The notes below the pieces were generated by a model. That model searched no databases and had not been told where the DNA came from. It was given only the letters and a program-made list of their open reading frames with translations. A stretch of DNA of 42,828 nucleotides from Lysobacter sp. (GTDB lineage Bacteria > Pseudomonadota > Gammaproteobacteria > Burkholderiales > Usitatibacteraceae): contig JAMPXV010000003.1 in the NCBI GenBank assembly GCA_023700985.1, positions 1 through 42,828 of the forward strand, in the 5' to 3' direction. How positions within the stretch are numbered: the stretch's first letter is position 1; every line of letters starts with the position of its first letter. Positions 12,972 through 23,547 of this stretch are shown here, in pieces. Both the position numbers and the translations under genes were made by a program.

Positions 12972-15062
12972 CTAGAAGGAGGCCGTGGCCGTGGCGCCGA
13001 GAGTCCAGGTGCGGCCCGCGGCCGGCTCGAAGTAGCGCCCGCGCGCCTCGGCCACGATCACCGAGCCTGCGTAGGCGTGTCCCCCCGCGTTGTCGAGGCG
13101 CGCGAAGGCGGAAAGGCGCCACGTCGCGAACCGGCGCTCGAAGCCTGCGCGAAGGTTCACCACCGCGTAGCCGGCGGCCGCGTCGGTGTTGGCGTCGTTC
13201 ACGTACACCCTGCCCGAGGCCTGGAGCTCCGCGCCGGCGTGAAAGCCGCTGGCCGCGTGCCGCCACACCGCTTCCGCGTGAAGCATCGATCCCGGCACGC
13301 CCGGGAGCCTCGAGCCCGCGGGCACGGGGATGGGCGGCGTGCCCGAGGTGAAGCCCTCGACGAAGCGCGCGTCGAGCCAGGTCCACGCCACGCTCGCCTC
13401 GAAGCCCGCGCCGAAACGGCCCTGCGCCGCGAGCTCGAGGCCGTCGCGCCTTGTCCGGGAGGCGTTCCGGAAGGTCGTGCGGCCGGCCGAGGAGGAGTCG
13501 ACGACGATCTCGTCTCGCGTGTCGATGCGGAAGAGCGCCGCGGTGAAGCGACCGCCCTCCCCGAGCCTCGCCTTGGCGCCGGCTTCCGCGTGGCGGCTGC
13601 GCGCGGGCCCGAGCTCGAGGTTGAGCCCCGTCGCGCCGCCGGGACGATAGGCGAGCTCGGCGAAGGTCGGCGTCTCGAACCCGCGGCCCGCGTTCGCGTA
13701 GAAGCTCCATGCGGGGTTCGCCTTGAAGAGGAGCCCCGCCACCGGCGTGACCTGCGTGTATTCCACGCGGCCGCTGTCGTCGGGGTTGGGCCCGGTGACG
13801 TAATGGTCGCGCGACTCGAAGGCCACGCGGCTGCGCCGCACGCCCGCGGCCGCGACCCACGCCGGCGCGAACCGCCACTCGCCCTGCGCGTAGAAGTCCG
13901 TGTTCGCGACGAGATCGTCCTCGTCGCGGCGAAGCTCGCCGCGGGTGCCGAATTCGTTCACGTAGCCTCGGCGCCGCTCTTCCAGCCCGTCGCGCTCGGC
14001 GCCCGCCGTGAGCGTGAGCGGCCGCTCTCCGGGAACCTGGCGCGTCCAGCGAAGCCCCGCGCCGCCGAAGCGGCGGTCGAGGTCGACCACGCCGCCCGAG
14101 GCGAGCGGCGCATCGCCGGCCTGCGCGAGGAACTGCAGCACGGTCCGCGACCCGCCGTGGACGCGCAGCTGGAGCGAGTCGTGCGAACCGAGATCGACCT
14201 CGTGCACCGCGCCGATCTGGCCCTGGCGAACGCTCTTGCGCGTGTCGAACAGCAGGGCGGCGGCGGCGGCCTGGCCCGGGTCGGCCTCGAACTGCGCCCG
14301 CGTGAGCCCCAGCGGATCCTGCGACTCCGGCTGGTCGAGGCCATTGGCGACGAGCGTGAGCCGGCCTCCCCCGAGGGGGGACGAGAGCTTCGCGTTGAAC
14401 TGCTCGCGAACGGCCGCGCCATGGGCGCGATGGCCGTCCGTCCGGAACCGCGACAGGCCGGCCAGGTAGTTCAGGTCCCCGCGCTGCCCGCCGAACCGCA
14501 GTGCCGCCCGCCGCGTGCCGTGCGAGCCGGCGAAGAGCGACGCGTCGAGCGTCGGCTCGGGCGGCCCGTCCGCGGTGAAGACCTGGATCACCCCGCCGGA
14601 TGCGTTTCCGTAGAGCGTCGCGAAGGGGCCGCGCAGCACCTCGACGCGATCGGCCGTCGCGAGGTCGAAGGAGGCCGCCTGGCCCTGCCCGTCCGGCATC
14701 GTCGCCGGGATCCCGTCGGCGATCAGGCGCACGCCTCGCACGCCGAAGCTCGCGCGCCCGCCGAAGCCGCGCAGCGACACCTGCAGGTCCTGCGCGTAGT
14801 TGTGGCGGTTGCGCACCGCCAGCCCGGGCACGCGGCCCATCGCCTCGGAGAGGTTCACCTGCAGGCGGTCCTGCGCGATGTCCCGCGCGTCGACGCGGTC
14901 GATCGCCGCCGGGATGTCGAGGAGGCCTTGCGGCAGGCGCGTGGCCGTCACCACCAGGTCGGCGATGCGGTCCTCGGCTTCGGCGGGGGCGTGCTGCGCG
15001 AACGCGCCGTTCGCCGCGAAGAGGAGTGCGGCGAGCGGGACCGGCGGGGCGACGGGGATCAG
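12972..15062 (-). CDS. TonB-dependent outer membrane receptor, probable CTG start
   Basis: This is a receptor of about 696 residues that imports a scarce ligand (iron chelate, vitamin or metal) across the outer membrane. The N-terminus looks like a signal peptide (VAPPVPLAALLFAANGAFAQ), followed by a TonB-box-like DLVVTATR, a plug domain (VPGLAVRNRHNYAQDLQVS, VEVLRGPFATLYGNASGGVI) and a 22-strand barrel ending in the expected terminal Phe (LGATATASF). No ATG, GTG or TTG is usable near the N-terminus. CTG at 15062 forms a CTGA overlap with the upstream DD-peptidase stop and is my preferred start. The first GTG lies about 60 codons upstream, inside that gene. The ligand is unknown; a frameshift at the junction is the alternative. 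Confidence 0.85.
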   Translation of the reverse strand: MIPVAPPVPLAALLFAANGAFAQHAPAEAEDRIADLVVTATRLPQGLLDIPAAIDRVDARDIAQDRLQVNLSEAMGRVPGLAVRNRHNYAQDLQVSLRGFGGRASFGVRGVRLIADGIPATMPDGQGQAASFDLATADRVEVLRGPFATLYGNASGGVIQVFTADGPPEPTLDASLFAGSHGTRRAALRFGGQRGDLNYLAGLSRFRTDGHRAHGAAVREQFNAKLSSPLGGGRLTLVANGLDQPESQDPLGLTRAQFEADPGQAAAAALLFDTRKSVRQGQIGAVHEVDLGSHDSLQLRVHGGSRTVLQFLAQAGDAPLASGGVVDLDRRFGGAGLRWTRQVPGERPLTLTAGAERDGLEERRRGYVNEFGTRGELRRDEDDLVANTDFYAQGEWRFAPAWVAAAGVRRSRVAFESRDHYVTGPNPDDSGRVEYTQVTPVAGLLFKANPAWSFYANAGRGFETPTFAELAYRPGGATGLNLELGPARSRHAEAGAKARLGEGGRFTAALFRIDTRDEIVVDSSSAGRTTFRNASRTRRDGLELAAQGRFGAGFEASVAWTWLDARFVEGFTSGTPPIPVPAGSRLPGVPGSMLHAEAVWRHAASGFHAGAELQASGRVYVNDANTDAAAGYAVVNLRAGFERRFATWRLSAFARLDNAGGHAYAGSVIVAEARGRYFEPAAGRTWTLGATATASF

Positions 15063-15961
15063 CCCGCGCGCAGGGCGCCGGCGAGGCGGGCGGGGTTCTT
15101 CTCGAGCCAGCGCTTGATGCGGTTGGCGTCCCCGATGCGCGTGAGGCGGCCCCAGGAATCCAGGAGCACGATCACGACGGGGGTGTTGGCGATCATCGCC
15201 TGCATGACGAGGCACTTGCCGGACTCGCTGATGTAGCCGGTCTTGGAGACGCCGATTTCCCAGTCGCCCGCGCGCACGAGCGCGTTGGTGTTCACGTAGG
15301 CGAGCTTGCGGCCGGTGGTCGGCAGCGTCACGTCGATGGCCGGCGTGGTGGAGTACTCGCGGATGACGTCGTACTTGGAGGCCTCGGCCACCAGGCGCGC
15401 GAGCTCCGCGGGGCTGGAGACGTTGCCGGGGGCGAGCCCGCTCGCGTCCACGAAGCGCGTGGAATCGAGGCCCAGCAGCTTCGCCTTGGCGTTCATGGCG
15501 TCCACGAAGGCGCCGGTGCCGCCCGGGTAGGCGCGCCCCAGCGCGGCCGCGGCGCGGTTGTCGGAAGCCACCAGCGCGATGCGGATGAGGTCGTCGCGGC
15601 GGAAATGGGCGCCCACGGGAAGGCGCGACCGCGTTCCCTTGAGGAGGTCGAGGTCGTCGGTGGTGATCTGGACGGGCTCGTCGAGCGGCAGCTTCGAGTC
15701 GAGGATCACCATCGCCGTCATCAGCTTGGTGATCGAGGCGATGGGATGCACCGTGTCGGCGTTCTTGGCGAAGAGCGTCTCGCCCGTCTTCGCGTCGAGC
15801 ACGAGGGCCGCCGTCGACATGAGGTTCGGGTCGCCGTCCTTGTCCACGTCCGCGACGGCCCGCGTGGCCTTCGTCGCCTTGGCGCGCGATACGGGCTTGT
15901 CCGCCGCGACGGCCGCGGTGGCAAGGGCGAGCAGGGCGAAAAGGGCTGCGAGGCGCTTCAT
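15059..15961 (-). CDS. Low-molecular-weight penicillin-binding protein (PBP7/DacF-type DD-peptidase)
   Basis: This is a 300-residue secreted serine peptidase that trims or cleaves peptidoglycan cross-links. A signal peptide is evident (MKRLAALFALLALATAAVAA). The three active-site motifs are present: SITK near residue 76 (SxxK), SDN near residue 133 (SxN), and KTG near residue 241 in VSKTGYISESGK. The length and lack of a C-terminal amphipathic anchor favour the PbpG endopeptidase group over DacA/DacC. The longer ORF upstream is not coding-like. A promoter (TGCTATGGT) is predicted 30 bases upstream. The stop overlaps the TonB receptor start, so the two are probably one operon, though I see no functional link. 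Confidence 0.9.
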   Translation of the reverse strand: MKRLAALFALLALATAAVAADKPVSRAKATKATRAVADVDKDGDPNLMSTAALVLDAKTGETLFAKNADTVHPIASITKLMTAMVILDSKLPLDEPVQITTDDLDLLKGTRSRLPVGAHFRRDDLIRIALVASDNRAAAALGRAYPGGTGAFVDAMNAKAKLLGLDSTRFVDASGLAPGNVSSPAELARLVAEASKYDVIREYSTTPAIDVTLPTTGRKLAYVNTNALVRAGDWEIGVSKTGYISESGKCLVMQAMIANTPVVIVLLDSWGRLTRIGDANRIKRWLEKNPARLAGALRAG

Positions 15962-15990
15962 GGGAACCGATCCGGAGCGGGGCAAGCCGC

Positions 15991-15996
15991 ACCATA
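15991..15996 (-). promoter_or_regulatory. Extended -10 element upstream of the DD-peptidase gene
   Basis: TATGGT preceded by TGC is found on the minus strand in the 99-bp divergent gap between the DD-peptidase and metY-like genes. Predicted start near 15984, with a leader of about 22 bases and no obvious ribosome site. Confidence 0.35.
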
Positions 15997-21232: not shown

Positions 21233-21270
21233 GGACCGGCCTTGCCCCCCGCATTCCCGAGGAGACGACC

Positions 21271-22314
21271 GTGCTGCCGATTCGTGCCGCGCTGCGCTTC
21301 GCGATCCTGCTCCTCGCCGCGGCACTCCCGGCCGCCGGCGCCTCGATCCCCGCGGCCCCGGAGAAGCCCGCCGCGCCCGCCAAAGAGGAGGAAGCCACCC
21401 GCCGGCAACTCGAGGATGCCGCCGGTGCCGTCGTCGCCGTTCGCACCCGCGCCATCGGCAACGCGCGCTCGAAGGAGAGCCTGGGCGCCGAGCGTACCGG
21501 CTCCGGAATCCTCATCGCGCCCTCCGGGCTCGTCCTCACCATCGGCTACCTCATCCTCGAGGCCGACCAGGTGGAGATCACCGACTCCGGCGGCCGGTCG
21601 CTGCCGGCGACCGTCGTGGCCTACGACCACGCCACCGGGTTCGGCCTGCTGCGCCCCTTCGGGCCGCTCACGCCGAAGCCGGTCCGCCTCGGCGCCTCGG
21701 ACAAGGTCGAGCAGCTCGACCGCCTCATGATCGCCTCGGGCGGCGAGGGCGGCCTGTCGGTGGCCACGGTGGTCTCGAAGCGGCCCTTCGCCGGTTACTG
21801 GGAGTACCTCATCGACGGGGCCATCTTCACCGCGCCGCCGCGCATGGACCACAGCGGCGCGGCGCTGATCAACCGCGACGGCGAGCTGGTGGGCATCGGC
21901 TCGCTCTTCGTCATGGACGCGATGACGCCGGGAGAGCGCCTGCCGGGCAACATGTTCGTCCCCATCGACCTCATCAAGCCCATCCTCGCGGAGATGATCG
22001 AGACGGGCCGGCAGAAGGCCGGCCGGCGGCCGTGGATCGGCGTGAACACCGCCGAGGACGACGGGAGGCTGAAGGTCCTGCGCGTGACCGCCGAGGGCCC
22101 GGCGGAGGCCGCGGGCCTGCGGGCCGGCGACCTCATCCTCGCGGTGGGTGGCGAGAAGGTGCGCGACCTCGCGGACTTCTACCGCAAGCTGTGGGCCGCG
22201 GGGGAGCCGGGGGTGGAAGTCGGGCTCACGGTGCTGCAGGGCGCCGACCTCAGGGAGCTGAAGGTGCGCTCCATCGACCGGCTCGACTTCCTGCGCCGCA
22301 AGCCCACCATCTGA
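21271..22314 (+). CDS. HtrA/DegP-like trypsin-fold protein with PDZ domain, catalytic triad degenerate
   Basis: This is a 347-residue secreted protein with a trypsin-like domain (about residues 45-240) and one PDZ domain (about 250-340: WIGVNTAEDD, GPAEAAGLRAGDLILAVGG). I start at GTG 21271, preceded by GAGGAGACGACC, which puts the signal peptide (IRAALRFAILLLAAALPAAGA) at the N-terminus. Aligned by eye with DegP, the catalytic His position (TNNHVV) reads TIGYLI (Tyr93), the Asp position (RSDIAL) reads ATGFGLL (Gly123), and the Ser remains in MDHSGAAL (Ser195). The protein therefore probably does not cleave peptides. It may bind misfolded or partner proteins in the periplasm. It precedes an MFS gene by 18 bases. 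Confidence 0.85.
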   Translation: MLPIRAALRFAILLLAAALPAAGASIPAAPEKPAAPAKEEEATRRQLEDAAGAVVAVRTRAIGNARSKESLGAERTGSGILIAPSGLVLTIGYLILEADQVEITDSGGRSLPATVVAYDHATGFGLLRPFGPLTPKPVRLGASDKVEQLDRLMIASGGEGGLSVATVVSKRPFAGYWEYLIDGAIFTAPPRMDHSGAALINRDGELVGIGSLFVMDAMTPGERLPGNMFVPIDLIKPILAEMIETGRQKAGRRPWIGVNTAEDDGRLKVLRVTAEGPAEAAGLRAGDLILAVGGEKVRDLADFYRKLWAAGEPGVEVGLTVLQGADLRELKVRSIDRLDFLRRKPTI

Positions 22315-22332: not shown

Positions 22333-23547
22333 GTGACCCCTGCCGCGGCGCGCGTTCGCCGCATCCTCTACACCGCCGCCTTCCTGCGCGCGCTCGCCAT
22401 CGGGATGATGGCGGTGCTGATCGGGCTGTACTGCGCCCGGCTCGGATTCACGGCGACGCAGATCGGCATGGTCCTCTCCGCGGCTCTGTGGGGGGCCGCG
22501 CTCGCCACCCTGCTCACCATGGTCGCCGGCAGCCGCCTGCCGGAGCGCGCGCTCCTCGTGACGCTCTCGGGGCTGCCCGTCCTGGGTTGCGCCCTCCTCC
22601 TCGCGACCGACGCGTTTCCGGTGATCGCCGCCGCGGCCTTCGTGGGCATGTTCAACGTGAACGGCCGCGACCGGGGCGCCATCCCGATCCTCGAGCAGGC
22701 GATGTTCCCCGCGACCACCACGGACACGGACCGCACGCGCGTCTTCGCCTGGTACAACGTGCTGCTCGACCTGGGCTATGCGGCGGGGGGTCTCCTGGCG
22801 GGGCTGCCCACGCTGCTCGAGATGGCCGCGGGGCTGGCCCCGCTGGCCGCGATGAAGGCGGCGCTGGTGATCTTCTGCGCGCTCTATCTCGCCTCCGCCG
22901 CGCTCTATGCCCGGCTGCCCGCCCGGGTGGGCGAGGCCGCGCCGTCGCGGCTGCGCGACCTCTCGCCGGAGAGCCGGCCCATCATCGCGAAGATCTCGGC
23001 GCTCTTCTTCGTCGACGCCTTCGCCGGCGGCTTCATCGGCTCGGCGATCTTCGCCTACTGGTTCTCCGAGCGGTTCGGGGCGACCGCCGCCACCGTGGCC
23101 GTGCTCTTCAGCGCCGGACGGCTGCTCTCGGCGGCTTCCCACATCGCGGCGGCGTGGCTCGCGAAGCGCATCGGGCTCATCAACACGATGGTCTACACGC
23201 ACATCCCCTCGAGCGCGCTCCTCTTCACGATCGTCGCCTCCGACGAGTTCGCGTGGGCCGCGTTCTTCTTCCTGCTGCGCGAGGCGCTCAACGAGATGGA
23301 CGTGCCCACGCGCCAGTCCTACGTGATGGCGGTGGTGAAGCCCGCCGAGCGCCTGGCCGCGGCCGGCGTGACGAACCTCGTGCGTTCCGGCGGTTGGGCG
23401 CTTGCGCCGATGTTCGCGGGGGCGCTGATGCAGACGGCGGGCCTGGGCGTGCCGCTGGTGCTCGCGGGGGTCGCCAAGATCGGCTACGACCTCGCGCTGT
23501 GGCGCGAATTCCGGCGGGTGAAGCCGCCGGAGGAGCGCGAGGCGTGA
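22333..23547 (+). CDS. MFS transporter
   Basis: This is a 404-residue major facilitator superfamily protein with about 12 hydrophobic segments. The first helix pair reads RILYTAAFLRALAIGMMAVL, followed by ARLGFTATQIGMVLSAALWGAA. The cytosolic loop between helices 2 and 3 is AGSRLPERALL rather than a classical GxxxDRxGRR. Helices 4-5 contain FVGMFNVNGRDRGAIPILEQ, and helix 10 contains REALNEMDVPTRQSYVM. This last pattern recurs in bacterial MFS proteins of unknown substrate. The start is GTG at 22333. It ends 13 bases before the convergent diguanylate cyclase gene. Substrate unknown. Confidence 0.87.
   Translation: MTPAAARVRRILYTAAFLRALAIGMMAVLIGLYCARLGFTATQIGMVLSAALWGAALATLLTMVAGSRLPERALLVTLSGLPVLGCALLLATDAFPVIAAAAFVGMFNVNGRDRGAIPILEQAMFPATTTDTDRTRVFAWYNVLLDLGYAAGGLLAGLPTLLEMAAGLAPLAAMKAALVIFCALYLASAALYARLPARVGEAAPSRLRDLSPESRPIIAKISALFFVDAFAGGFIGSAIFAYWFSERFGATAATVAVLFSAGRLLSAASHIAAAWLAKRIGLINTMVYTHIPSSALLFTIVASDEFAWAAFFFLLREALNEMDVPTRQSYVMAVVKPAERLAAAGVTNLVRSGGWALAPMFAGALMQTAGLGVPLVLAGVAKIGYDLALWREFRRVKPPEEREA

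Follow-up and report, generated by a model that had tools for sequence, protein, structure and literature searches.

Proteases of the HtrA group (DegP, DegQ, DegS and HtrA; MEROPS S1C, with DegQ 3stj/4a8a and H. pylori HtrA 7xs0 as solved structures) possess a signal peptide, a chymotrypsin-fold domain and a C-terminal PDZ domain with a W/Y-[IL]-G-[VI] loop. The carboxylate-binding loop motif of the HtrA PDZ domain has been described, sensor loop L3 is central to DegS activation, and HtrA mutants without catalytic activity keep the ability to suppress aggregation and to rescue stress phenotypes (PMC11642142). Of 247 trypsin-like proteins counted in a survey of 91 prokaryotic genomes, only 2 were inactive homologues (PMC2605481). 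One HtrA pseudoprotease, MamO, is already published: it is HtrA-derived, its protease domain is dead and it is kept beside an active relative (PMC4794232), it retains His116 and Asp149 with Thr at the Ser position, and it belongs to the magnetosome island and carries a TauE domain. Another bacterial protease fold offers the pseudo-orthocaspases, caspase homologues of bacteria in which Tyr replaces the catalytic His across a group and Cys is exchanged for Ser (PMC6426788); the fold and family are unrelated to those of the protein considered here, and the likeness is an analogy only. The present case is a subfamily of HtrA pseudoproteases that is widespread and bears a misleading annotation, and for which no describing paper was found in the open-licence literature (subscription journals being outside the scope of the search).

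The window, i.e., the whole stretch of 42,828 nucleotides that was analyzed, encodes a member of this subfamily on the forward strand at 21271..22314, in an undamaged frame of 347 aa plus a stop codon that ends at 22314. A Shine-Dalgarno-like AGGAG (21260..21264) lies 6 nt ahead of the GTG start at 21271. By eye, the N-terminus (MLPIRAALRFAILLLAAALPAAGA, followed by S) has the features of a probable Sec signal peptide covering residues 1–24 (21271..21342) with an AGA|S site, and pLDDT is low for residues 1–25; the protein is probably exported and would reside in the periplasm. It contains a chymotrypsin-fold Trypsin_2 domain at residues 77–209 (21499..21897; Pfam PF13365, 7.3e-15) and a single PDZ domain at residues 255–332 (22033..22266; PDZ_2, 4e-15), both matches exceeding the curated Pfam cut-offs. 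The PDZ carboxylate-binding loop is retained as RPWIGV (22027..22044) and is conserved as RPW[IL]GV in the aligned family, Trp255 and Gly257 being near-invariant. The C-terminal tail (22267..22311) has a conserved D336-R337 and a short helix (DSSP, residues 337–342 of the model). The cut-offs of the described HtrA subfamilies are not reached, neither for TIGR02037 (HtrA/Do; 75.4 of 416 bits) nor for TIGR02038 (DegS; 73.9 of 423 bits).

A single-chain AlphaFold2 model of the whole protein, built from 54 family sequences, had a mean pLDDT of 86.7 and a pTM of 0.83, and its Foldseek matches were DegQ, Deg1, DegP, HtrA1 and DegS, at low TM-scores (~0.5). As domain orientation depresses the whole-chain TM-score, a separate model was made of the protease domain (pLDDT 91.5), and this gave TM-scores of ~0.75–0.79 against DegQ, DegP and DegS (~0.78 for DegQ/DegP). 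With E-values of about 1e-12 to 1e-21 for the DegQ/DegP matches, the protein belongs to the HtrA/S1C fold, at about 20–25% identity to its structural matches. The comparison with DegP/DegS that the sequence-only reading had proposed thus returned an HtrA fold for the whole protein and for the protease domain. That reading had also considered the fold, the PDZ domain and the signal peptide intact and the frame free of damage; models, Pfam and the translation bear this out for fold, PDZ domain and frame, and the signal peptide stands as a call made by inspection. Its coordinates, frame and motif calls were all correct in the translation and the HMMER alignments.

Catalytic positions were assigned from HMMER alignments of the window protein to DegQ and H. 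pylori HtrA. Tyr93 (21547..21549) falls on the catalytic His (VLTIGYLI vs. VLTNNHVI in the solved HtrAs), Gly123 (21637..21639) on the catalytic Asp (ATGFGLL vs. QSDIALL) and Ser195 (21853..21855) on the catalytic Ser (DHSGAAL vs. GN[S/A]GGAL). In a family alignment of 125 rows from Beta-, Gamma- and Alphaproteobacteria, including a few near-duplicates, Tyr93 and Gly123 are each invariant (125/125), hence the loss of His and Asp is not a chance event, and none of the aligned orthologues has a His-Asp-Ser triad at these positions. Position 195 is occupied by Gly (52 rows), Ser (41), Asn (17), Gln (8) or Ala (7), with Ser replaced in 84 of the 125 rows, and as it varies in this way Ser195 is not a retained nucleophile. 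Of the initial claim that His and Asp were lost and Ser was kept, the first half therefore extends to every aligned row and the second applies to the window protein and its near relatives, not to the family. The GNSG[GS] nucleophile/oxyanion motif is replaced by DHSGA in the window protein and by [HWFY][SGNQA]G[ATSC] in the family, where intact paralogues carry GNSGG. Compared with DegP, moreover, one residue is missing between the conserved Thr and the Ser, and so is the Gly-Asn that precedes the Ser, which makes an oxyanion hole in the window protein unlikely.

These differences set the family apart from DegP/DegQ/DegS/HtrA: His and Asp are replaced in every member, Ser is variable, loop L3 has become a WEY hairpin and there is a single PDZ domain. 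They also set it apart from MamO, as the window protein has lost the His and Asp that MamO keeps and carries a PDZ domain. Membership in MamO was considered and rejected (20.1 bits vs. the NCBIfam NF040961 cut-off of 800, with a different residue pattern), and no conserved His pair of the kind forming the MamO di-histidine metal site is present in the family alignment. Judged from the aligned residues, it is very highly probable that the window protein belongs to an HtrA subfamily incapable of serine protease work.

A cryptic protease, in which Ser195 would be activated by H194, H120 or another non-canonical base, is very improbable. Its basis is the conservation of D193-H194 and Ser195 in a DHS clade of 26 rows that includes the window protein, but H194, the sole fully conserved His of this clade, adjoins Ser195 in sequence and triad geometry is not expected from it, while H120 is His in only 16 of the 26 rows. 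The clade alignment contains no conserved His/Asp pair able to serve Ser195, and the replacement of this residue in most of the family, together with the lost GN before it, argues further against such an activity.

A tree was built without the three catalytic columns from 97 family rows and six intact-triad HtrAs of the window's bacterial family. All 97 family rows lie on one side of a long-stem branch (SH-aLRT 100) that separates them from the six HtrAs, and position 195 changed between Ser and non-Ser at least eight times. The pseudoprotease family is an old, monophyletic HtrA (S1C) subfamily, and the loss of the triad is old as well, not a decay in the window's genome. The dN/dS against close orthologues is 0.24–0.42, near the top of the range of neighboring genes in the same genomes (0.04–0.45) or a little higher, and clearly < 1, showing that the gene is under purifying selection. 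Catalytic residues have thus been lost in a conserved, maintained lineage, as is generally expected of a pseudoprotease, and the proposal of a maintained pseudoprotease made from the letters alone gains support from the invariant Tyr93 and Gly123, the HtrA-fold models and the dN/dS < 1.

At least 447 relatives came out of a scan of genome contigs; the best 80 of them stem from Beta-, Gamma- and Alphaproteobacteria, among them Azospirillum, Azohydromonas, Aquincola and Denitrobaculum. The carriers of the family are bacteria of soil and water. Of 398 near-complete Pseudomonadota genomes drawn evenly, 42 had a member scoring > 330 bits; below the family the matches dropped to about 113 bits, and the four inspected were HtrAs with intact catalytic motifs. 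Within the window's class the pseudoprotease was present in 8 of 370 drawn genomes; it is patchily distributed in that class, and its carriers are concentrated in certain alphaproteobacterial families. Within the window's bacterial family it occurs in two genera (7/8 sampled genomes of the window's own genus, 5/6 of another). It is absent from 13/13 genomes of a third genus and 1/1 of a fourth, where only weaker matches of ordinary HtrAs were obtained, and from one sampled genome of the window's own genus; given its absence from the 13 genomes of the third genus and from this last one, the gene is dispensable at clade level. Such gaps could be read as signs of a recent pseudogene on the way to loss, or of an assembly artefact, a reading whose probability is negligible: the same substitutions stand at positions 93 and 123 in all aligned rows, the dN/dS is well < 1, the frames in the genomes searched were open and free of internal stops, and the gene also occurs in several complete single-contig genomes. 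It is refuted by the conserved homologues. Annotated plasmid copies are mostly named ‘S1C family serine protease’ (RefSeq), and the ‘serine protease’ annotation of family members is almost certainly wrong.

As to function, our best overall explanation, to which we give a probability of about 0.5, is that this old subfamily of dead HtrAs works as a periplasmic client-binding adaptor or holdase beside an active DegP. Taken separately, the mode of action, that of a periplasmic binding protein (adaptor or holdase), is put forward tentatively. Since dead HtrA mutants still act as chaperones (PMC11642142), it is reasonable by analogy to suggest a holdase role for a naturally dead HtrA. With the triad His and Asp lost, along with the GN before Ser and a residue from the oxyanion-hole stretch, the protein would perform no serine protease catalysis, and the sensor loop L3 has become a tight hairpin with an invariant Trp-Glu-Tyr. 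The PDZ groove may bind client envelope proteins by their hydrophobic C-termini or by segments that lie exposed, a second binding surface could be provided by the rebuilt protease cleft, and the clients might be shielded or handed over, beside a separate active DegP/MucD in the same cell. Handling clients in the manner of DegP would call for a trimer. An HtrA lineage that is dead, so old and so widespread implies a selected, non-cutting envelope job in many soil and plant-associated bacteria, and the family offers a natural test of which HtrA parts (PDZ domain, L3, cleft) function without proteolysis.

Active relatives are indeed found in the same cells. Next to an RseB-like gene, the window's genome encodes a DegP of the MucD type in which the motifs TNAHVI, RSDVALL and GNSGG are intact. 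Additional Trypsin_2 proteins are encoded by all ten complete or near-complete carriers examined, and most of those read have the motifs intact. The smallest carrier, a complete alphaproteobacterium-like genome of 1.2 Mb and 30% GC, encodes two Trypsin_2 proteins and no more, an intact DegP and a pseudoprotease of the family; within its order, the pseudoprotease occurs only in its genus (2/118 sampled genomes). Pseudoenzymes often regulate their active paralogues. The family could accordingly supply a regulatory pseudo-subunit that forms mixed oligomers with the cell's active DegP/MucD or tunes it allosterically, in line with the constant presence of further Trypsin_2 proteins in the ten carriers, with the pairing of one intact and one dead protein in the smallest of them, and with the selection for pairing active and inactive HtrAs inferred in the MamO study (PMC4794232). 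Yet an active DegP is nearly universal and co-occurrence with it says little, most of the genomes sampled in the class and the phylum lack the family despite the wide occurrence of active DegP, no linkage of the pseudoprotease with degP was seen at the loci surveyed, and inter-subunit signalling loops such as L3 are replaced. On balance we regard a regulatory pseudo-subunit as unlikely, and favor the client-binding adaptor or holdase.

Family-specific residues bear on a further alternative. Residues R75, Y93, E97, G123, F124, F173, W177, E178, Y179, G210, N227 and W308 are fully or almost fully conserved in the family but not in the six intact-triad HtrAs; G77, G79, T90, D119, P189, G196, G208, P231, G257, P277 and D287 are common to both groups and mark the common fold. 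W177-E178-Y179 (21799..21807) is an invariant, family-specific motif that the model places at the turn of a hairpin joining strands 162–175 and 179–188, where HtrAs have sensor loop L3. In the old cleft, R75, Y93, E97, E178, Y179 and N227 might form a new site for a ligand or a metal, or another catalytic center. The (near) invariance of these polar residues in the family and their absence or rarity in the six intact-triad HtrAs would fit this, and MamO is a precedent of an HtrA domain turned metal binder (PMC4794232); on the other hand, the same residues may serve fold stability, and no His or Cys that could bind a metal is invariant in the family alignment. We judge such a site improbable. 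The broader proposal that widespread HtrA descendants rebuilt both cleft and L3 (R75, Y93, E97, W177-E178-Y179, N227) into a new binding or catalytic site is likewise doubtful; if true, it would mean a new periplasmic function behind the ‘S1C family serine protease’ label in Azospirillum, rhizobia and betaproteobacteria.

The gene neighborhood was surveyed by gene calls and Pfam scans around about 100 loci. No neighboring gene was conserved throughout the family across these loci; contexts are clade-specific, no pathway is indicated, and none of the functional readings (adaptor or holdase, DegP regulator, rebuilt ligand site) is favored by them. In the window's bacterial family, a hydroxypyruvate isomerase gene lies upstream and an MFS gene downstream. 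Azospirillum loci have NUDIX and PALP neighbors, Rhizobiaceae loci DUF992 and glycerate kinase, and other alphaproteobacterial loci uvrD and a CLC channel gene. A link to a glycerate pathway, suggested by hydroxypyruvate isomerase in one clade and glycerate kinase in another, fails in other clades and was discarded. Defence-system models gave no match.

On two Rhizobiaceae megaplasmids, the DUF992 gene is just upstream and the glycerate kinase gene just downstream on the opposite strand, and both loci adjoin pca genes (aromatic catabolism). At six alphaproteobacterial loci (L061, L066, L080, L088, L091, L172), the pseudoprotease gene is preceded by a divergently oriented gene for a UvrD-type helicase, and at five loci (L066, L072, L080, L088, L112) it is followed by a CLC-channel cluster gene on the opposite strand. 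In the window, the MFS gene (22333–23547) comes directly after the pseudoprotease, an arrangement common to five relatives (L034–L038); beyond it the window has a GGDEF gene and these relatives have other genes. Elsewhere in the window, a 1007-aa TonB-dependent receptor ORF on the reverse strand (12972–15995) resembles PqqU from about residue 355 onward only (649 bits vs. a cut-off of 1200), its first 350 residues being an extension or a false start.
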